Of a stretch of 64,000 nt of DNA, positions 4,929 through 45,359 are shown piece after piece. The notes below the pieces were generated by a model that was not told the origin of the DNA, did not search any database, and saw only the letters and a list, made by a program, of their open reading frames with translations. Position 1 is the first letter of the stretch; every line of letters begins with the position of its first letter. Source of the stretch: Silvanigrella paludirubra (GTDB lineage: Bacteria > Bdellovibrionota_B > Oligoflexia > Silvanigrellales > Silvanigrellaceae); contig NZ_WFLM01000002.1 in the NCBI RefSeq assembly GCF_009208775.1, positions 372,001-436,000 of the forward strand, in the 5' to 3' direction. Both the position numbers and the translations under genes were made by a program.

Positions 4929-5573
4929 TTATGCTCGTAGTATATTTTTTCTTAAATTTGATAGATAATTTTTTGCTCTGTTGTTTACTTTAGAAAAATC
5001 ATAATAAGTAGAATCCCAATCATAGGAAAAAGCCTCTTTTAAATGTCTAAATGCTAAACATTCAGCCTCTCTATATAAAGAATGTGTATGAGGTAAAAAT
5101 CGATTTCCTTGAAAAACCTCATCACAAATTTGATGTAAATTCTTCCAATTTTTATTTATTTTTTGATGACTACTTTCAGAGTTCCAATGCATTAGACATA
5201 AAAACCTATCAATTTCTCCCAATGTCTCAATTTCAAGAGTAGACACATTTGAGTTTAAAGTAACTATATCCGTAATTAACTTAAAGTGACTAATTTCTTC
5301 TGAAACAACAGCTAAAGAATTTAATGAAACAATATCATTATTTTCAAAATCAAAAACAATTTTTTTGCCAAACTGTATTCCAATAAAAAATTCATTATTT
5401 TCTGAATTTTCTTCAAACAATGTTTGTCCACAATTTTCAGGAATATTATTTGAAGGAGGTAATACATAATTATCTATTGGATCAGTGTTAACAAAAGAGT
5501 AGTATTTCGACATAATTTTAATTAAATCATCACAGCCTAAAAAAAATTTTTTATGATTCATTTTAAACATCAT
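4929..5573 (-). CDS. Conserved-looking cytoplasmic protein of unknown function
   Basis: A 214-residue soluble protein. The central part alternates beta strands and helices (NSLAVVSEEISHFKLITDIV), and the C-terminal third is helical and basic (REAECLAFRHLKEAF, RAKNYLSNLRKNILRA). The start ATG lies six bases after the stop of the upstream gene and has no clear ribosome binding site, so translation is probably coupled. The two genes very likely work together. I do not recognise a family. Confidence 0.65.
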   Translation of the reverse strand: MMFKMNHKKFFLGCDDLIKIMSKYYSFVNTDPIDNYVLPPSNNIPENCGQTLFEENSENNEFFIGIQFGKKIVFDFENNDIVSLNSLAVVSEEISHFKLITDIVTLNSNVSTLEIETLGEIDRFLCLMHWNSESSHQKINKNWKNLHQICDEVFQGNRFLPHTHSLYREAECLAFRHLKEAFSYDWDSTYYDFSKVNNRAKNYLSNLRKNILRA

Positions 5574-5579
5574 AATTTT

Positions 5580-6194
5580 TTAGACCTTGCGCGTAGATAC
5601 CTTAATGGGATTTACTCCTCTGTGAAATAATTCTTTTTCTAATTTAGGACTAGCTGTATTTAACCAAGCATCATATAAACTTAATATAGTTCTTTCATTA
5701 TTTTGATTTGTAGTTTGCTCAGAAATATCTAATAAAATATCAACAGCTACAGTAAAATTTTTACTCATTTCATAATATATAGTTGACATTGTTTCTTGAT
5801 AAGTATTTTTTCCTTTTAATAAATTAGATAATTCATTATAAGCAGACTCACCCATTGTTACGTAATATCTTATATCAAAACTTTTTCTATTAAAATATTC
5901 TTGAAAAAATCCAGAAAAATAAAGAGCTGTATCAGCTAATTTTTTATAGAGAGCAATTTTTTCGGAGTGAGAACTTTCTAATGCTTTTTTTAATATTAGT
6001 GCTAGACAGTCTTCATTGCTATCTGAGTCAGAAGCCCTTAAATAACCACATAAAAGATTAACAATATAAAATTCAACATTTTCTGTTAATTTTAATCTTT
6101 GGCGTTCTTGAGCTTCAACAACCATTTCATGAAAAAACTGTGTAGGATTTACTTCTGTCATCCAAAGCGTACTTAAATCCGACTTGGAGCCCAT
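5580..6194 (-). CDS. Helical cytoplasmic protein of unknown function
   Basis: A 204-residue all-helical protein starting at the ATG at 6194. A GGAGG is correctly spaced upstream; an in-frame TTG at 6206 overlaps that site and is rejected. The segment FFHEMVVEAQERQRLKLTEN followed by EFYIVNLLCGYLRAS looks like a conserved core found in uncharacterised proteins of deltaproteobacteria-like lineages (from memory, unverified). It leads a two-gene operon with the 214-residue protein downstream and is divergent from the mevalonate operon. Confidence 0.65.
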   Translation of the reverse strand: MGSKSDLSTLWMTEVNPTQFFHEMVVEAQERQRLKLTENVEFYIVNLLCGYLRASDSDSNEDCLALILKKALESSHSEKIALYKKLADTALYFSGFFQEYFNRKSFDIRYYVTMGESAYNELSNLLKGKNTYQETMSTIYYEMSKNFTVAVDILLDISEQTTNQNNERTILSLYDAWLNTASPKLEKELFHRGVNPIKVSTRKV

Positions 6195-6409
6195 TTTTGC
6201 CTCCAACTAACATAATGAAATGACTATAAAGATCTTAAAATAAGACAATTCAATAGTCAATTACGGTCCTATTCCCTTTTCGTCAGAATAAATTAACAGT
6301 TAAAGTTTTTTTTAGATTTGTTTCTCTTGATTGTGTTTTCTCATATTGATAAGCCTTTGAAAGGTGAATCGATTACTCATACTTTTAATTGAGTTTGGAG
6401 CATTTAACA

Positions 6410-7513
6410 TTGTCAAATTTAAAAAATCTAGATAAATCTGATATCCTTTCTTATACAGAAGATACTCCTGTTTTAATGGAAAGTAGAAAAAACGATCATA
6501 TTCAAATTTGTAAAGACAAAGATGTAGAATCTAAATGTGATATTTTTTCGAAAATTCGGTTTTATCCTGAAGCATTACCTGAATTTAACTTAACTGACGT
6601 TGAAATGAAACAATCCTTTTTTGGCAAAACGTTTGACCTTCCTCTATTAATTACAGGAATGACGGGTGGAGTTGAAAAAGGCCAAGAAATTAATGAAGCT
6701 CTTGCTGCTGCCGCAGAAAAATATAATATTCCTATGGGTTTAGGCTCTCAAAAAATAATGATAAAAGATCCTAAATATAAAAAACTTTTTAATGTAAGAA
6801 AAGTGGCACCAAATTTATTTATTATTGGTAATTTGGGGGCCGTTAGTCTGAATTATGGCATAAAACTTGATGACATTAAAAGACTGGTAGATGATTTAGA
6901 GCTCAACGCTTTTGCACTTCATTTAAACGCCCTTCAGGAAAGTATCCAACCCGAAGGTGAGAGAAATTTCGCAAATTTACTCTCTAAAATTGAATTGATT
7001 GCAAAAAGCTTGCAAGTTCCTTTACTTATTAAAGAAGTTGGCTCAGGAATGTCACCTTCTACATTTCAAAAACTTGTATCTGTTGGAGTTTCTGGTGTAG
7101 ATATTGGCGGCAAAGGGGGCACTAGTTGGGGCTATATTGAGGGGTTACGCTCAAACAAAGAAGGGCAACGGTTAGGAGAACTTTTTAAAAATTGGGGTAT
7201 CCCAACTGACGAGTCTCTTATCCTTTGTTCTAGACGTAACAAAGAACTTGGATACAATATACCTTTAGTTGCAACAGGGGGCATCAGAAATGGTCTTCAT
7301 GTAGCAAAAGCTGTCGCTGCAGGAGCAACAATGGCAGGAGTTGGTTTGCCTTTATTTAGAGCTGCCATTTCTCCTGAAAAAGGGGAAACTGCATTGGAAT
7401 CCGTTGAAAAAGAGATTTCCTTTTTTAAAAAATCTCTTTCTATCGCAATGTTTTGCTCTGGTGCACAAAAGCTATCAGAATTAAGTTCTCGCGTTGTGCG
7501 AGAAGCACTATAA
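6410..7513 (+). CDS. fni: Type 2 isopentenyl-diphosphate delta-isomerase
   Basis: This FMN-dependent enzyme interconverts isopentenyl and dimethylallyl diphosphate, the last step before prenyl chain building. Family motifs are intact: RKNDHI near the N-terminus, LLITGMTGG, GLGSQ, the GGKGGTSWG loop about residue 235, and ATGGIRNGLHVAKAVAAGA for flavin-phosphate binding. The start is uncertain: I chose the TTG at 6410 because GGAG lies nine bases upstream. A TTG at 6389 and an ATG at 6476 are also in frame, and the latter gives the usual short N-terminus before RKxDHI. It is the first gene of the mevalonate operon, 16 bases ahead of mvaA. Confidence 0.93.
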   Translation: MSNLKNLDKSDILSYTEDTPVLMESRKNDHIQICKDKDVESKCDIFSKIRFYPEALPEFNLTDVEMKQSFFGKTFDLPLLITGMTGGVEKGQEINEALAAAAEKYNIPMGLGSQKIMIKDPKYKKLFNVRKVAPNLFIIGNLGAVSLNYGIKLDDIKRLVDDLELNAFALHLNALQESIQPEGERNFANLLSKIELIAKSLQVPLLIKEVGSGMSPSTFQKLVSVGVSGVDIGGKGGTSWGYIEGLRSNKEGQRLGELFKNWGIPTDESLILCSRRNKELGYNIPLVATGGIRNGLHVAKAVAAGATMAGVGLPLFRAAISPEKGETALESVEKEISFFKKSLSIAMFCSGAQKLSELSSRVVREAL

Positions 7514-7529
7514 GCTAAAGGTAACAAAG

Positions 7530-8849
7530 ATGGTAAAAGACAATCAACAAGTCCTATCTCGCTCTTCTACAATACAACCAGATATTGTACAAAAGACAAT
7601 TCCATTTCAGCATAATCAGCAATCTTTAGCATCTAGTCGCATACCTAATTTTGCTCAAATGAATTCAAAACAACGCTGCCAAGCCCTTGTATCAAGAAAT
7701 ATTATTTCACATAATGATTCTCAAGCTCTAAACAACTCAGGCGCATTAAGTATTGAGCAAGCAGAAAAATTTATTGAAAATTGTATTGGTGGCTTTACTC
7801 TTCCCTTAGGAATTGCCACTAATTTTTTGATAGATGGTCAAGAAATTTTTATTCCAATGGCTGTTGAAGAATCTAGTGTGGTTGCAGCAGCAAGCTTTGG
7901 TGCAAAATTAGCAAGAACTTGTGGTGGCTTTTTTTCAGAACCAACTGAAACCATAGCAACTTGCCAAATACAATTTATTATTGATCCAAAAATAAATATT
8001 TACTCTATTTTTCATGAATTCTTAAGAGAAAAATTATTTGAATTAGCTCAAAATTGTCACCCACGCCTTGTTCAAAGAGGTGGTGGAGTAAAAAGCATTG
8101 AGCTTCGTGCTCTCTCCAAACCTGGGTATTATGTTTTTCATGTAAATGTGGATACTTGTGAAGCTATGGGTGCAAACATTGTAAACTCAATTGCAGAAGA
8201 AATGGGTAGAAAACTTCCCGAATTATTGCCATGCACAGTAGGTTCAAAAATTTTAACAAATTTAACAACCCATCGCATCACAAAAGTAAAATGTGAAATT
8301 GAGTTTTCTGCATTAGAACGCGAAAATTATTCTGGCGAAGAAGCAGCAAGACGCATTTGTTCTGTTTGGGAATTTGCTGATCTCGATCCCTTTCGTGCGA
8401 CAACACATAACAAAGGCATCATGAATGGCATTGACCCTGTGGTGATTGCTACAGGAAATGATTGGCGTGCTGTGGAAGCAGGTTGTCATGCTTATGCTTC
8501 TTTATCCGGAACTTATAAACCACTTACAAAGTGGTTTATAAATAAAAATAAACGACTTCAAGGTGAAATTGCTTTGCCAATCGCAGTAGGAACTGTTGGT
8601 GGTGTTACAAAACTTCATCCGACAGCAACTTCATGTTTAAATTTATTAGGGACACCATCTGCTTCTCGATTATCTGCCATAATTGCTAGTGTAGGACTTG
8701 CCCAAAATTTATCTGCCATTCGTGCTTTAGGATGTGAAGGAATTCAAAAAGGCCACATGGCATTACATGAAAAAAATCTAGAAATGATGCGTCAATATGA
8801 TCACCTTCCAAGTATTTCGGTTGTCGAAAACCAAAATACTGGAAATTAA
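7530..8849 (+). CDS. mvaA: Hydroxymethylglutaryl-CoA reductase (class II type)
   Basis: It reduces HMG-CoA to mevalonate, the committing step of the mevalonate pathway. The 439-residue soluble form without membrane anchor is typical of bacterial class II enzymes. Visible motifs are ENCIGGFTLPLG (about 83-94, catalytic Glu), EAMGANIVN (about 211), GTVGGVTKLHPTA (about 354) and GHMALHEKN (about 407) with the catalytic His. The first 45 residues are a polar, Gln/Ser-rich extension. The start is the ATG at 7530, with AAAGGT upstream; an ATG at 7494 would overlap fni and lacks a site. A perfect 13-bp inverted repeat lies inside the gene at 8513-8541. Confidence 0.95.
   Translation: MVKDNQQVLSRSSTIQPDIVQKTIPFQHNQQSLASSRIPNFAQMNSKQRCQALVSRNIISHNDSQALNNSGALSIEQAEKFIENCIGGFTLPLGIATNFLIDGQEIFIPMAVEESSVVAAASFGAKLARTCGGFFSEPTETIATCQIQFIIDPKINIYSIFHEFLREKLFELAQNCHPRLVQRGGGVKSIELRALSKPGYYVFHVNVDTCEAMGANIVNSIAEEMGRKLPELLPCTVGSKILTNLTTHRITKVKCEIEFSALERENYSGEEAARRICSVWEFADLDPFRATTHNKGIMNGIDPVVIATGNDWRAVEAGCHAYASLSGTYKPLTKWFINKNKRLQGEIALPIAVGTVGGVTKLHPTATSCLNLLGTPSASRLSAIIASVGLAQNLSAIRALGCEGIQKGHMALHEKNLEMMRQYDHLPSISVVENQNTGN
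8513..8541. repeat. Perfect 13-bp inverted repeat inside mvaA
   Basis: TTATAAACCACTT (8513-8525) and AAGTGGTTTATAA (8529-8541) are exact reverse complements around a 3-base ACA loop. The RNA would form a stable hairpin within the coding sequence for TYKPLTKWFINK. No T-run follows, so a classic terminator is unlikely. Confidence 0.6.
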
Positions 8850-8861
8850 AGAAGCAAATTA

Positions 8862-9872
8862 ATGAATCAAGTTTATTTATGTATTCCTGCAAAAGCCATA
8901 CTTTTTGGGGAATATGGTGTTTTATATGGTGGCAAGGCTGTAGCTGTTACTTTTTTTGATCATTGTTTTAATATATCCTTAAAAATAAAAAGACTTGAAG
9001 AGAATTCTAGTATCAAAATTAAAAGTGATTTTTTTTCTAATCAAAACATTCAATTTTCAATTCATGATAACAATGAAAACAAAAGTAATGATCCAAATAT
9101 TTTTTTCTTTTCAAATTTAATTAAACCATGGAATTCTTATTTAGAAAATTGTGAACTTAATATTGAAATTCAAAAATCATTTTCTCCGTCCCTAGGTTTT
9201 GGTTCTTCTTCTGCACTTATTGCGGGTATTTCTGCAGGATTATGGCAGCTTATTTATCAAAACAAAGAATATTTAAATCAAATTGAATTTTGGAATAATG
9301 TAAAACAGTCCATTCAAAACATCCAAGGAGGAGGCAGCGGCTACGATGTAGCTGTTCAATTAGCTGCAATTGAAAATGATGAAACAAATAAAAAAACAAA
9401 ATTTTGGATTTTTCAAAACAATTTGAACTCTATTATTCCAAATATTTATCCTTATATACCAAAAATAAATTTAAATAGATTAGGCTGTTTTATTTCTACA
9501 AATATATACTCTAATACAACAAAAGCTCTTCATAAATTTCAAAATGATAAAGAAAAATTACTATTTGCAAATAGCCACTCCAAAATATGTGAAACTTTTT
9601 TAGAATTAAAAACCATAAATGACCTTCAATTAATAATGAAAAATTCACTAGAAATAGCCTGTTCGCAGAAAATTCTCCCTTTACATAACAAAAAATTTAA
9701 TGACTTAATTTCTATATTTAATTCAAAACAAATTGCATATAAATCGATGGGTGCAGGTCACGGTGACTGTTTATGGGTTCTTTTAAATAAATATAAATTA
9801 AAAACAGAATGCCAAATATCTGAATCTGATATTCCTTTTGCTTTTGAAACTATTGGGACAGAAAATGAATAA
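8862..9872 (+). CDS. mvaK2: Phosphomevalonate kinase (GHMP family)
   Basis: It phosphorylates 5-phosphomevalonate to the diphosphate. The 336-residue protein has the three GHMP kinase motifs: AKAILFGEYGVLYGGKAVA (10-28), PSLGFGSSSAL (about 110-120, ATP-binding loop) and a C-terminal KSMGAGHGDCLW (about 295-306). GGGSGYDVAVQ in the middle is also typical of phosphomevalonate kinases. The other two GHMP enzymes of the pathway are recognised in the next two genes, which leaves this step for this protein. It ends inside the start region of mvaD (8-base overlap), so translation is coupled. Confidence 0.87.
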   Translation: MNQVYLCIPAKAILFGEYGVLYGGKAVAVTFFDHCFNISLKIKRLEENSSIKIKSDFFSNQNIQFSIHDNNENKSNDPNIFFFSNLIKPWNSYLENCELNIEIQKSFSPSLGFGSSSALIAGISAGLWQLIYQNKEYLNQIEFWNNVKQSIQNIQGGGSGYDVAVQLAAIENDETNKKTKFWIFQNNLNSIIPNIYPYIPKINLNRLGCFISTNIYSNTTKALHKFQNDKEKLLFANSHSKICETFLELKTINDLQLIMKNSLEIACSQKILPLHNKKFNDLISIFNSKQIAYKSMGAGHGDCLWVLLNKYKLKTECQISESDIPFAFETIGTENE

Positions 9873-11070
9873 TACATTAATTAAAGATATTCCTGCTGAA
9901 CTTGAAAGACTGCAAAATAAATTATTAGAGTTAAGAAAACAAGGAAAACTATTTATTCAAAATGGTGATGTGGGCTATTCTAGTGCTCCGAGCAATATTG
10001 CTCTTCTTAAATATTGGGGTAAAGAAACAAATAGAGAGCAAATACCATTAAATTCAAGTTTAAGTTATACAATTGGAGGTTTTCGCTCTTTCACTAAAGT
10101 AACTGCATTAGGACGCTTTTTACCTAATGAAGAAAAGACAGTTAGTTATTTTAAAAATAAATTATTTTTAGACGAAAATTCAAAAGAAAATAAACTCCCC
10201 CCAAAAATGGATCGTTTAATTCGTTCCATTTTATTTCCTTTTGCTGATGAAATATCAATTGAAATTAATAGTCATAATAACTTTCCCACAGCTTGCGGTA
10301 TTGCATCTAGTGCCTCGGGATATGCTGCTTTAGTTGGAGCCATAGCTGATTTATTGCAATTGGAAAAACATTTTTCAAAGTTAGAGCTTTTATTTTGGCT
10401 TTCAGAATGGGCCAGGTTGGGAAGTGGTTCTGCAACAAGAAGTGTATTTACAAGCGAAGAAGAATCTTTTGTAAAATGGGAAGCCCCCATTTTAAATAAA
10501 AATAAATTTACAAACACAAGCAGTGTTAAATTCCATCCCAAATGGCGTCAACTTCAGCACTCTGTTTTTATTCTTAACAGCAGTGAAAAACAGACATCAA
10601 GTTCTGATGGACATAAATATGCCCAAACTTCACCTTTAAATATAATAAGAACATCTGGTATTTCTCATAAATTAAAATTACTACAAAAAGCTTTATTAGA
10701 ATTTGACTTCGAATGCGTCCAATCTCTAACTGAAGAAGATGCTTATTCTATGCACGCTGTAATGCAAACGGGTGAACCTAAAGCTTGCTATTTAACAAAT
10801 GAAGTTTCAAATCTTATTGGTTTATTTATACAACTTCGAAATGAGTACGATGTTAAAGCCTTTTGGACATTAGATGCAGGTCCTAATATTCATATTTTAT
10901 ATATGCCTGAAGCAAAAATAATGTTGCAAAAATTTCATGAAATATCTCAAACAATGATTGAACGAGAAATTAAAATACTTACAAATTCTTTCAATGAAGG
11001 TTTATTAATTGGAAAAAATTCTTTTAATAGAGTAAAAAATATAAATACTCTGGAAAGTTATTTAAAATGA
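9865..11070 (+). CDS. mvaD: Diphosphomevalonate decarboxylase
   Basis: It performs the ATP-dependent decarboxylation of diphosphomevalonate to isopentenyl diphosphate. The protein of 401 residues contains YSSAPSNIALLKYWGK (about 38-53), the hallmark of this family. It also has NFPTACGIASSASGYAAL (about 139-156, phosphate-binding loop), GSGSATRS (about 185-192) and WTLDAGPNIHI (about 333) with the catalytic Asp. The ATG at 9865 overlaps the mvaK2 stop; an upstream in-frame start at 9838 is deep inside mvaK2 and is rejected. It overlaps mvaK1 by four bases (ATGA). Confidence 0.95.
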   Translation: MNNTLIKDIPAELERLQNKLLELRKQGKLFIQNGDVGYSSAPSNIALLKYWGKETNREQIPLNSSLSYTIGGFRSFTKVTALGRFLPNEEKTVSYFKNKLFLDENSKENKLPPKMDRLIRSILFPFADEISIEINSHNNFPTACGIASSASGYAALVGAIADLLQLEKHFSKLELLFWLSEWARLGSGSATRSVFTSEEESFVKWEAPILNKNKFTNTSSVKFHPKWRQLQHSVFILNSSEKQTSSSDGHKYAQTSPLNIIRTSGISHKLKLLQKALLEFDFECVQSLTEEDAYSMHAVMQTGEPKACYLTNEVSNLIGLFIQLRNEYDVKAFWTLDAGPNIHILYMPEAKIMLQKFHEISQTMIEREIKILTNSFNEGLLIGKNSFNRVKNINTLESYLK

Positions 11071-12074
11071 ATTTAAATAATAATATTCTTTCTAAAGTAA
11101 CAATAAGTGCGAATGCAGGTGGAAAAGCTATATTAATTGGCGAACATTCTGTTGTTTATGGACATAAAGCAATAGCTATGGCGCTTCCAGATGTCCGACT
11201 TCAAATGAAATTATGCGCACCTGATATTCCTCTAGAATCTTGGGATCATGCTTGGAGTACTATTGTTAAAGGAAAAAAATACGAGCCCGAAATTCATATT
11301 AAAAAACTCCTCATAAAAGCTTTTGAAAAAGCACTTTCTTTATGTAAAGTTACAGATAATATTTATGAATATACTCCACAAATTATTTTAGTTCAGTCTG
11401 AAATACCTTTAGGAGGAGGAATGGGAGGAAGTGCAGCCATAAGCACTTGTTTCCTTAAAATAGCGGCTCAAATTGCCTTACAAAAGAATATCATGAATGA
11501 AGAAATCACAATTGAAAAACAAATTGAATTTGCAAATGAAATAGATTGTTTATTTCATTTTGGAAAAGCAAGCGGCTTAGATGTAACCGCTGTTGCAAGT
11601 GATGGAATGATTGAATTTACAAAAGGCGAAAAACATAAATACATTCAAAATGAAAAAGAATTTTGGCTTGCTCTCATCGACTCCCAAGAACGAAGTGAAA
11701 CCTCTCTTATGGTTAAAAAAGTTGCCTTAAAACTTGAAGAAAATAACATAATGGCGAAAGACGCTTTAGATCAACTTGGAAAACTAGCGAATGATTGTGT
11801 TCAAAATTTAACTTCAGGAAATTTAAATGCTTTAGCAAAAAATTTAAATTGTGCTCAAGATTATTTAAACATTTTAGGAGTATCAACTCATAAAATAAAT
11901 AACATAGTAGACGTATTAAAAAATGAAGGAGCCTTAGCCGCCAAACTCACAGGTGCTGGTGGCGGAGGATTGGTCATGGGCATTTTTGAATCACACCCAA
12001 AACAGTTATACTCTATATTTAATGAAGAATGTTTATTTATAACGAGAGTTCCTAAATATGGAAAACGAATCTGA
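11067..12074 (+). CDS. mvaK1: Mevalonate kinase (GHMP family)
   Basis: It phosphorylates mevalonate. The 335-residue protein matches mevalonate kinases: GGKAILIGEHSVVYGHKAIA (17-36), the ATP loop PLGGGMGGSAA (about 113-123), SGLDVTAVASDG (about 168) with the catalytic Asp, and AKLTGAGGGGLVMG near the C-terminus. It starts within the stop of mvaD (ATGA) and its last 17 bases overlap the recombinase gene that follows, so all genes from mvaK2 on are likely translated from one message. Confidence 0.94.
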   Translation: MNLNNNILSKVTISANAGGKAILIGEHSVVYGHKAIAMALPDVRLQMKLCAPDIPLESWDHAWSTIVKGKKYEPEIHIKKLLIKAFEKALSLCKVTDNIYEYTPQIILVQSEIPLGGGMGGSAAISTCFLKIAAQIALQKNIMNEEITIEKQIEFANEIDCLFHFGKASGLDVTAVASDGMIEFTKGEKHKYIQNEKEFWLALIDSQERSETSLMVKKVALKLEENNIMAKDALDQLGKLANDCVQNLTSGNLNALAKNLNCAQDYLNILGVSTHKINNIVDVLKNEGALAAKLTGAGGGGLVMGIFESHPKQLYSIFNEECLFITRVPKYGKRI

Positions 12075-13137
12075 AAATAAAATTATCAATATTTCTGTTC
12101 CCAGTACTTTGGGAAATTCATTAATCCAAAATTTAAATTCTATAGAATATCTTGCAGAATGGGCAAAAAGAGAACCCACCAATCACATTTCAGATATCAT
12201 TCTTCATTTTTTATTAAGTTTTTCAAGCTTAAATACAAAAAAAAGTTACCTTTTTGATTTAAAAGAATTTCTAAATTTCACATTTACAGAAAATATGAAT
12301 ATTGAGTACATTAATCAAATTGATGAAAAAACCTTAATTATGTGGCATGACCACTTAACAAATAAAGGTAACTTAACTCAAAAATCAATAAGAAGAAAAT
12401 TAAATTCATTATCATCACTTTTAGAATTTTGTAAGAAAAGAAAATTGATTACTATAAATCCAATGATATTTATTCAAAAACCCAAACATAAAGGAGAGAG
12501 TAAAACAAATGCTTTCACTCTAGAAGAAGTAAAATCAATTTTATATCATTGCGAAAAAGAATATGAATTATTAACTCAAGAAAATTCAAATACAAAAAAA
12601 TGTAAAAGTGCTCTTCTTAATTATTCTATTCTAGTTACTTTATTATCTGTCGGTATGAGAGTAAATGAACTTTGTGAACTTAAAATAAAAGACATCGAAT
12701 TTGCATCCGATTTCACAAGATTACATATGACAGCTAAAGGAAATAAAGAGCATTCTCCCATTATTCACCATAAAACATCGCAAATAATCAAAAAATATAT
12801 TCATGAACTGAGACCAAACGCAAAAGAAGATGATTATTTGTTTATTCGAGTTCAAAATGTAAAAAACAATACAAAATTAACTCAACCAGCTATATATAAA
12901 ATGGTTATAGAATCTGCTAAAAAAGCCGGAATTGAAAAAAAAGTCAGCACTCATAGTTGCAGAGCAACTTTAGCAACCCTGCTTCATAATCAAGGTACTC
13001 CTATTGGCCAAATACAAACCTTATTAAACCATAAAGATATTACAACAACATCCATTTATATAAAAAAAGCAAATGAAATTGAAGAATCTGCAGCAATGAA
13101 ACTTAATTTGTCTCACTTTCCAGACCCAAATAAATAA
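12058..13137 (+). CDS. Tyrosine recombinase, XerC/XerD-like
   Basis: A 359-residue site-specific recombinase. An N-terminal SAM-like core-binding domain (about 45-140, with TKKSYLFDLKEFLNF) precedes the catalytic domain. The catalytic residues are all visible: Arg in VGMRVNEL (about 201), Lys in TAKGNKEHS (about 227), HSCR in THSCRATL (about 299-302), His in LLNHKDI (about 325) and the nucleophile Tyr in TTSIYIKK (about 334). It is longer than XerC/D (about 300), with an extra 40 residues at the N-terminus. The ATG lies inside mvaK1, an unusual position. It could be the chromosome-dimer resolvase of the organism or a recombinase with another target; no nearby dif-like site was recognised. Confidence 0.88.
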   Translation: MENESENKIINISVPSTLGNSLIQNLNSIEYLAEWAKREPTNHISDIILHFLLSFSSLNTKKSYLFDLKEFLNFTFTENMNIEYINQIDEKTLIMWHDHLTNKGNLTQKSIRRKLNSLSSLLEFCKKRKLITINPMIFIQKPKHKGESKTNAFTLEEVKSILYHCEKEYELLTQENSNTKKCKSALLNYSILVTLLSVGMRVNELCELKIKDIEFASDFTRLHMTAKGNKEHSPIIHHKTSQIIKKYIHELRPNAKEDDYLFIRVQNVKNNTKLTQPAIYKMVIESAKKAGIEKKVSTHSCRATLATLLHNQGTPIGQIQTLLNHKDITTTSIYIKKANEIEESAAMKLNLSHFPDPNK

Positions 13138-44027: not shown

Positions 44028-45359
44028 TTACTTTGATTCAAGTAACATAGCCATACCCATTCCCCCAGCAGCACAAACAGCAACTACAGCATATTTGCCA
44101 CCTTTTCTTTTTAATATGCGTAAAGCATTTCCAATTAATCTTGCGCCTGTTGCGCCAAATGGATGCCCTATTGCAATTGCACCACCCTGAATATTAATTT
44201 TTGATGGCGGTATTGTTCCAAATAAAGAGGAATCTAGCTTTTCGCGGCAGAATGTTTCGTTATTCATAGAGTCTAAACAACTTAAAACTTGTCCTGCAAA
44301 AGCTTCATGAATTTCAAAAATGTCTATATCATCTTTTGTTAAATTATTTCTCTTTAAAATTTTAGGAATAGCATAAGCTGGGCCTATTAATAATTGATCA
44401 TTTGGATCAACAGCTACCGTTACAGTATCAACAATATAACCAAGGTAAGGTAATTTTTTTTCTTTAACGTAACTTTCGCTTGCTAATAAAGCGACAGCAG
44501 CTCCATCTGTTAAGGGACTGGAATTTGCAGCAGTTATCGTTCCGTTACGTTTGTCAAAAACAGGCTTTAATTTTGCCATAGATTCAATAGAAGTATCAGC
44601 TCTAACCATATTATCTTTATCAACAAAAATATTTTTATCTTTTCCTGTCCAAACAGGAACAATTTCATCTTTTAAATATCCAGCTTCAATAGCTGATGCT
44701 GCATTAATATGGCTTTTATATGCTAATTCATCTTGTCTTGCACGAGAAACATTATTTTTAACTGTCATTATTTCTGCATGCTCGCCCATTGTTAATCCCG
44801 TAAATGGCTCTGCAAGAGCGGGAGGTTTAGGTAAAAACCATTTTGGATTTACGCTCCCAATAAGGGATAGTCTTTCTTTAAATGATCTTGCCCTAGACAT
44901 TTTAGTTAAAAAGCGGCGTGCTTCATCTGAAAAAGGAATGGGAACATCGGATAAAACTTCAACTCCCCCAGCTAAAACAAGTTTATTTTTTCCAAGCAAA
45001 ATTCTATCAGCAGCAATTTCTGCGGTTTGTAAGGATGAGTTGCAAGCTTTATTTAATGTAAAACCTGCAATTGTAGTTGGTAATCCTGAAAATAAAACAA
45101 TTTCACGAGCTAGATTTGCATTTTTAGTTTGCGGAATAACGACACCCCAAATACATTCATCAATATCAGATGCCTGAACACCTGTTTTTGAGATAACTTC
45201 ACTAGCTACTCTTAAACTTAATGAGAGTGCCGTTTCTTGTTCAAAAACTCCAAATGATTTTACAAATGGAGTTCTCACAGTACTTACAACGACAACTCTT
45301 TCTTTTTTAGAACTTGAACTTTTTTTAGTACTGCTCTCAGTGCTCTCATTATTTTCCAT
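44028..45359 (-). CDS. fadI: Acetyl-CoA acyltransferase (3-ketoacyl-CoA thiolase)
   Basis: It cleaves 3-ketoacyl-CoA to acetyl-CoA. 443 residues with a charged Ser-rich N-terminal extension, then the thiolase fold. Catalytic residues: Cys in LNKACNSSLQTAE (about 106), His in EIHEAFAGQ (about 355), GHPFGATGAR (about 398) and the second Cys in VAVCAAGGMGMA (about 428). CNSSLQ rather than CSSGLQ is typical of the FadI-like long form. GAGGTGA supports the start. The acetyl-CoA it releases is the starting material of the mevalonate pathway. Confidence 0.93.
   Translation of the reverse strand: MENNESTESSTKKSSSSKKERVVVVSTVRTPFVKSFGVFEQETALSLSLRVASEVISKTGVQASDIDECIWGVVIPQTKNANLAREIVLFSGLPTTIAGFTLNKACNSSLQTAEIAADRILLGKNKLVLAGGVEVLSDVPIPFSDEARRFLTKMSRARSFKERLSLIGSVNPKWFLPKPPALAEPFTGLTMGEHAEIMTVKNNVSRARQDELAYKSHINAASAIEAGYLKDEIVPVWTGKDKNIFVDKDNMVRADTSIESMAKLKPVFDKRNGTITAANSSPLTDGAAVALLASESYVKEKKLPYLGYIVDTVTVAVDPNDQLLIGPAYAIPKILKRNNLTKDDIDIFEIHEAFAGQVLSCLDSMNNETFCREKLDSSLFGTIPPSKINIQGGAIAIGHPFGATGARLIGNALRILKRKGGKYAVVAVCAAGGMGMAMLLESK

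Follow-up and report, generated by a model that had tools for sequence, protein, structure and literature searches.

In the canonical bacterial mevalonate pathway, exemplified by Staphylococcus and Enterococcus, class II 3-hydroxy-3-methylglutaryl-CoA (HMG-CoA) reductase (HMGR), mevalonate kinase (mvk), a GHMP kinase, diphosphomevalonate decarboxylase (mvaD) and a type 2 isomerase (fni) are encoded together in an operon, and in the liu cluster of Pseudomonas (liuRABCDE) liuE encodes HMG-CoA lyase. HMG-CoA synthase is also present in the myxobacteria that have been studied. A link between leucine and isoprenoids emerges from published work: in myxobacteria, labelled leucine traced geosmin (PMC8949605) and labelled dimethylacrylate, not acetate, entered a sesquiterpene (PMC7321100), while in Trypanosoma brucei leucine enters sterols via isovaleryl-CoA dehydrogenase (IVD), deletion of which abolishes leucine entry (PMC5993337). 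A 2026 review describes most Legionella as being without HmgS and poses the source of their precursor as a question (PMC13001223). Here we analyse a stretch of 64,000 nucleotides from Silvanigrella paludirubra (hereafter the window; positions 372001-436000 of contig C3, in a 3.93-Mb genome of 30 contigs that is 98.2% complete), which carries a five-gene lower mevalonate operon, and consider where this operon obtains its HMG-CoA.

We propose that the lower mevalonate pathway encoded here is probably fed by HMG-CoA derived from leucine; synthesis from acetoacetyl-CoA and acetyl-CoA is improbable because no HMG-CoA synthase was found. The enzymes leading from isovaleryl-CoA to mevalonate are all present in this genome, the hydratase among them being a putative assignment. 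In the proposed route, leucine would be converted to isovaleryl-CoA by a transaminase and a branched-chain keto-acid dehydrogenase (postulated steps), IVD would oxidize isovaleryl-CoA to 3-methylcrotonyl-CoA, biotin-dependent methylcrotonyl-CoA carboxylase (MCC) would carboxylate this to 3-methylglutaconyl-CoA, and an AUH-type hydratase, acting on that presumed substrate, would yield HMG-CoA. HMGR would then form mevalonate, from which mvk, phosphomevalonate kinase (PMK) and mvaD would produce isopentenyl diphosphate (IPP) and fni dimethylallyl diphosphate (DMAPP). If HMG-CoA lyase, the drain to acetoacetate, is absent, leucine breakdown would stop at HMG-CoA, and the obvious user would be HMGR. 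The flux, the two opening steps and the role of leucine as sole source are our inferences. Each of these reactions is known, but sole dependence of a class on leucine would be new; we found no report of a missing HMG-CoA synthase or of a leucine route in Oligoflexia in the literature covered, to which most subscription papers and all bioRxiv preprints do not belong.

The operon itself is real and intact. The original prediction for this stretch described fni, mvaA, mvaK2, mvaD and mvaK1 as consecutive genes with small gaps or overlaps, forming a lower mevalonate operon in a Gram-negative-type genome, and both statements are borne out: a gap of 12 bases separates mvaA from the GHMP kinase gene, and the remaining joints are overlaps of 4-35 bases (fni/mvaA, 20; GHMP kinase/mvaD, 35, or 8 if mvaD starts at the alternative ATG at 9865; mvaD/mvk, 4). 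The fni frame opens with a TTG and includes a later codon at 6410, and either start is possible. All five frames are open, and in comparisons with three congeneric genomes (G002, G003 and G007) the proportion of nonsynonymous differences (pN, 0.14-0.36) is below that of synonymous differences (pS, 0.55-0.72) in each gene, synonymous sites being near saturation so that the direction alone counts. HMGR, mevalonate kinase and diphosphomevalonate decarboxylase of the canonical pathway are all present in the genome, and four of the five products exceed curated NCBIfam cut-offs (Table 1). The fifth, the GHMP kinase, falls below, its best NCBIfam score being 50 bits to TIGR00549 (cut-off 163). Its AlphaFold model (predicted local distance difference test score, pLDDT, 89.3; predicted template modelling score, pTM, 0.89) has the GHMP-kinase fold, with mevalonate kinases as its nearest solved structures and the phosphomevalonate kinase of Streptococcus pneumoniae matched at E 2.6e-11. 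The mvaK2 label therefore stands as far as a GHMP kinase in the operon is concerned, whereas the name PMK, although probably correct, comes from operon position and modelled fold, the sequence supporting a GHMP kinase only.

Table 1. Genes of the mevalonate operon and its downstream neighbour (window positions), and the leucine-degradation cluster elsewhere in the genome (contig positions).
Feature	Position	Strand	Support or remark
fni / idi2, type 2 isopentenyl-diphosphate isomerase	6389..7513	+	TIGR02151 361 bits, cut-off 281
mvaA, class II HMG-CoA reductase (HMGR)	7494..8849	+	TIGR00532 343 bits, cut-off 260; PF00368 334 bits
GHMP kinase, probable phosphomevalonate kinase (PMK, mvaK2)	8862..9872	+	Weak family matches, fold, conserved position
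mvaD, diphosphomevalonate decarboxylase	9838..11070	+	TIGR01240 184.5 bits, cut-off 171
mvk / mvaK1, mevalonate kinase	11067..12074	+	TIGR00549 186 bits, cut-off 163
xer-type tyrosine recombinase gene	12058..13137	+	Overlaps mvk by 17 bases; operon runs on into recombinase gene
Cluster pdxJ, MCCB, AtuA-family protein, AUH-type hydratase, MCCA, acyl-CoA dehydrogenase (IVD)	Contig C2, ~671,000-679,400		

HMG-CoA synthase, which was correctly said to be absent from the operon, seems to be missing from the genome as a whole, as judged from profile searches of this genome and 55 relatives up to class level (probably Oligoflexia; 56 genomes in total). A PF01154 search returned no HMG-CoA synthase in this genome; PF01154 misses the archaeal-type synthases that adjoin HMGR in Chloroflexi and is too narrow as a negative test. 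PF08540 detected the enzyme in two of the 56 genomes (G020 and G011), and a canonical profile built from these two copies recovered the same two only. Against TIGR01835 (cut-off 360) they reach 280 and 248 bits; they are 43% identical to each other, and neither of their contigs has an HMGR match. G011 is an 83% complete draft of ~1060 contigs in which contamination is possible. A mixed profile of 11 synthases of both canonical and archaeal types was searched against 75 genomes, with controls none of which is a row of the profile, although other Chloroflexi are. It detected 10 of the 11 non-myxobacterial controls, namely Chloroflexi (6/6, 517-547 bits), archaea (2/2, 447 and 462.5 bits), Elusimicrobia (1/1, 429 bits) and Ornithinibacillus (1/1, 228 bits), and gave 71 bits in the eleventh, Granulicatella, a possible false negative. 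Within the class it scored 425 bits in G020 and 404 bits in G011. Nothing of synthase-level score appeared in another pair of public records from the class, which are not independent: G056 is likely the genome of G023, and G057, with identical coordinates, is likely G026 again. The congeneric genomes G003 and G007, in which no HMG-CoA synthase was found, are single contigs, which excludes assembly gaps as an explanation for these two. The thiolase that the original prediction placed 32 kb away does lie at that distance (44028-45359) and is FadI-like, but it offers no clue to the missing step because it stands beside a gene for a FadJ-like protein, and a thiolase cannot yield HMG-CoA unless HMG-CoA synthase is there as well.

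The foremost competing explanation, which we consider unlikely, is that a divergent HMG-CoA synthase, or a FabH-like or thiolase-like enzyme, makes HMG-CoA from acetyl-CoA units and that leucine breakdown is catabolic only. The lower pathway does need feeding, since HMGR is present in 55 of the 56 genomes (all except G036), FabH-like proteins weakly match the mixed profile in many genomes, and both the blindness of PF01154 to some synthases and the possible false negative in Granulicatella show how such an enzyme could be overlooked. However, the mixed profile exceeds 200 bits in the ten detected controls, of both types, and in all class genomes but G020 and G011 (54 of 56) it stays at or below 59 bits; the single place that it matches in this genome (41.6 bits) is FabH, identified above the curated cut-off (TIGR00747, 323 bits); and purely catabolic use would leave unexplained why 51 of the 56 genomes have no convincing HMG-CoA lyase. 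As a separate observation, the genomes of six loci (L141, L143, L151, L167, L175 and L179), from Myxococcota except for one record titled Deltaproteobacteria, hold HMGR yet score at most 71.3 bits with the mixed profile, L143 and L167 having further mevalonate genes near HMGR. This set points either to a second synthase-less lineage or to synthases that the search fails to see.

No route to IPP other than mevalonate is seen in the class genomes, with dxr and ispG as the searched markers of the methylerythritol phosphate (MEP) pathway. No ispG was found in any of the 56 genomes, and the single dxr hit (22.7 bits across 64 positions, within a frame of 728 aa) was discounted as a marginal partial match; a hidden MEP pathway is accordingly rejected. 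In this genome none of mvaS, dxr and ispG, the genes that the original prediction singled out for checking, was found, and the case that it named as refuting, a complete MEP pathway beside a damaged operon, is contradicted by these searches, the open frames and the excess of pS over pN. Nor is there support for the operon as a curiosity of a single genome or as a recent acquisition as a block, block acquisition being a question that the original prediction raised. The order fni-mvaA-PMK-mvaD-mvk recurs in 17 of the 27 HMGR neighbourhoods read, two of the 17 with an extra frame inside; five others are truncated where their contig stops (G001, G009, G011, G043 and G046) and five deviate (in G008 PMK was not detected; G016 has no fni; only mvk and mvaA were detected in G019 and only fni and mvaA in G027; in G044 mvaD and mvk were not seen). 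In an HMGR tree of 83 rows, restricted to lengths of 280-520 aa, the 28 rows from the class fall into a single group (support 84/69), several long branches making placement within the group unsure. Because the order is kept and the class HMGRs group together, the operon is probably old in the class, and recent block transfer is rejected on the same two grounds, the tree being that of HMGR only.

The large HMGR proteins of the class are a further feature: at five loci (L045, L048, L053, L055 and L060, from G034, G045, G020, G009 and G030) HMGR lies inside proteins of 794-945 aa. The two that were scanned, from L045 and L048, have a C-terminal APH/EcKL kinase-like match, and one starts with an apparent PilZ domain by eye; their neighbours include, also by eye, AMP-binding-like proteins of ~500 aa and phosphoenolpyruvate-synthase-like proteins of ~900 aa. 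These large proteins possibly belong to a mevalonate- or HMG-CoA-using pathway of a new type; as candidates for the missing synthase they were rejected, since in the two scanned HMGR is fused to APH/EcKL kinase-like domains that match only weakly.

Fatty acids of the iso-C15:0 type are primed by isovaleryl-CoA, and menaquinone-8 (MK-8) is an isoprenoid. In five described Silvanigrellaceae strains, iso-C15:0 is a main fatty acid, and MK-8 is recorded in three and undetermined in two (PMC10645651), which lends indirect support to the proposed leucine route. A markedly less probable alternative than a divergent synthase is that mevalonate, HMG-CoA or finished isoprenoids come from prey or host and that the operon salvages mevalonate. 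Some members do live in hosts, as reported for Spirobacillus cienkowskii in Daphnia (PMC12321486), but HMGR, which a mevalonate salvager would not need, is kept in the 55 genomes, including two larger than 7 Mb, and a Silvanigrellaceae strain that holds MK-8 is described as growing on R2A and blood agars (PMC10645651), media that are, admittedly, not mevalonate-free.

The candidate leucine route is encoded by a cluster on another contig (Table 1), found by locating MCC with PF01039 and a protein search. MCCB scores 745 bits to the solved mitochondrial MCC beta subunit 8j4z and 725 bits to 3u9r, as against 454 bits to geranyl-CoA carboxylase and at most 271 bits to most propionyl-CoA carboxylases, while three differently named entries (9tps, 9yx0 and 4q0g) reach 700-735 bits. 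MCCA is a biotin carboxylase with a biotinyl domain. The five best solved relatives of the cluster dehydrogenase are all isovaleryl-CoA dehydrogenases, and it carries what we take to be the IVD active-site pattern, in which a glutamate stands in helix G and is missing from the usual catalytic position. The hydratase belongs to the crotonases, and its substrate, putatively 3-methylglutaconyl-CoA, is suggested by the cluster because methylglutaconyl-CoA hydratase (1hzd) scores much lower than its nearest solved relatives, isohexenylglutaconyl-CoA hydratase (4zu2) ranks third among them, and the second-best NCBIfam model, gamma-carboxygeranoyl-CoA hydratase, is matched below its cut-off (184 bits against 426). 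The AtuA-family protein (L042:7092-9002) matches PF07287 with 472 bits; it has a ferredoxin-like domain, is well conserved in the genus and was seen in 48 of 57 MCCB loci. These 57 loci, two of them second copies and many on contigs that end early, also hold MCCA in 47 cases, AUH in 42 and IVD as best match in 13.

The AtuA-family protein inside the cluster and the two hydratase relatives would also suit a supply in which this MCC and hydratase make HMG-CoA out of isovalerate or acyclic terpenes instead of leucine, as would a second MCCB-like locus in G022 and G023 (44-46% identity). We regard this as slightly less probable still than salvage from prey or host, given that MCCB matches methylcrotonyl-CoA carboxylases far better than geranyl-CoA carboxylase, by the margin above, that IVD lies in the same cluster and that this genome has genes for leucine synthesis. 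These genes comprise leuB, leuC and leuD together with a short LeuA-like protein of 388 aa (L125:5500-6666), which matches the first ~360 of ~515 model positions and falls below the cut-offs. It may lack the regulatory domain and thereby feedback control, which, speculatively, would suit a flow of carbon through leucine.

HMG-CoA lyase, the enzyme that would compete with HMGR, is rare in the class. Model NF004283 is matched above its cut-off in four of the 56 genomes and just below it, with an internal stop, in a fifth (G010); these five, none of which is in this genus, reach at least 230 bits, and the next best match has 69 bits. None of the 57 MCCB loci holds a lyase. In this genome no lyase (liuE) was found: the one match to the lyase profile (47.7 bits) was rejected because it is the LeuA-like protein in a leuA-leuB-leuD-leuC run. 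A protein of ~316 aa downstream of MCCA in other families was also rejected as a lyase: the one that was scanned has no Pfam match, and no lyase match was found at these loci. A catabolic HMGR that breaks down mevalonate is hardly credible, for although TIGR00532 is named 'degradative' and, among at least 80 HMGR loci, 10 of the 80 listed hold HMG-CoA lyase near HMGR, mvaA here belongs to the same operon as mvk, PMK, mvaD and fni, no other IPP route was found with dxr and ispG as queries, and no HMG-CoA lyase was found in this genome.

The leucine-degradation genes are unevenly distributed. MCCB of at least 55% identity occurs in 52 of the 56 genomes, two of them with partial copies (G011 and G055); identity is lower in G036 (53%), G044 (48%) and G014 (46%), and no MCCB was found in G001, which is 72% complete. 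IVD is found at 76-100% identity in all 14 genomes of this family (partial in G011), and G014, of the same order, has a homologue of 52% identity with the IVD pattern. Outside the order, five of the 62 distinct homologues that were read carry the pattern (one each in G020, G022 and G034, two in G023) at 31-38% identity; the pattern-bearing homologues of G022 and G023 adjoin the second MCCB-like gene.

Several observations weigh against a leucine-fed pathway. Absence by profile is fallible, as the archaeal-type synthases of Chloroflexi missed by PF01154 and the possible false negative of the mixed profile in Granulicatella (71 bits) illustrate; the mixed profile likewise finds nothing in six Myxococcota or Deltaproteobacteria (maximum 71.3 bits), two class genomes (G020 and G011) do carry HMG-CoA synthase, and five carry HMG-CoA lyase. 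Within the cluster, no NCBIfam equivalog is matched above its cut-off by IVD, MCCA, MCCB or the hydratase, and the solved relatives of MCCA, which include MCC alpha subunits, fail to set it apart from other biotin carboxylases. No leucine-degradation gene was seen to adjoin an mva gene, and in several genomes whose contigs are long, among them all six of family f10, AUH and MCCB are not neighbours. Outside the order, 57 of the 62 IVD homologues, from 39 of 41 genomes, are without the IVD pattern, and among the homologues read there is no clear IVD outside Silvanigrellales, so that the route is incomplete there. Lastly, the lyase profile that catches LeuA in this genome has no match in four congeneric genomes (G002, G003, G004 and G007), which may depend on external leucine. 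We consider Silvanigrellaceae the family with the strongest case for leucine-derived HMG-CoA, the evidence being weaker in the remaining families. A broader scenario, in which the whole class has a synthase-free mevalonate pathway with leucine as obligate precursor of quinone, undecaprenyl and carotenoid, most members have dispensed with the lyase and thereby keep leucine carbon for isoprenoids, and the same solution may explain other synthase-less bacteria such as Legionella and some Myxococcota, is put forward tentatively, as a possibility somewhat short of an even chance.

Around the operon, the downstream xer-type recombinase gene adjoins mvk in the genus genomes G002-G007. Upstream, two genes divergent from the operon (4929-6206) have no NCBIfam or Pfam match and stay near it in G002-G008 and G010-G013 of the family.

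The class offers a clear case, with cultivated members, for the question of how bacteria that have other mevalonate genes but no HMG-CoA synthase obtain their precursors, as raised in the 2026 review (PMC13001223). If leucine is indeed the source, isoprenoid supply would be tied to leucine, also in animal-living members, and HMG-CoA synthase would be dispensable to a mevalonate pathway. A mevalonate pathway has been reported for Spirobacillus cienkowskii and Silvanigrella aquatica, and in that case the glucose-feeding interpretation given to that of S. cienkowskii would have to change (PMC12321486).

As in the canonical mevalonate pathway, class II HMGR, mvk, mvaD, a GHMP kinase and a type 2 isomerase are encoded in an operon, but HMG-CoA synthase was not found in 54 of the 56 genomes searched, this one included. 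Compared with the liu cluster, this genome has the same set of IVD, MCC alpha and beta subunits and AUH-type hydratase (MCCA and the hydratase assigned by cluster position and family), whereas liuE was not found and an AtuA-family protein is added. In Legionella, HMG-CoA synthase is likewise reported missing in most species, but PMK is reported missing too, and Legionella belongs to a different class (PMC13001223). The trypanosomatid route runs in the same way from leucine through HMG-CoA to HMGR, although T. brucei is a eukaryote and is described as making HMG-CoA also from acetate, glucose and threonine (PMC5993337). In the myxobacteria studied, leucine contributes beside HMG-CoA synthase, whereas here it would be the sole source. 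The myxobacterial leucine branch passes through the same isovaleryl-CoA, 3-methylcrotonyl-CoA, 3-methylglutaconyl-CoA and HMG-CoA to isoprenoids (PMC7321100, PMC8949605).

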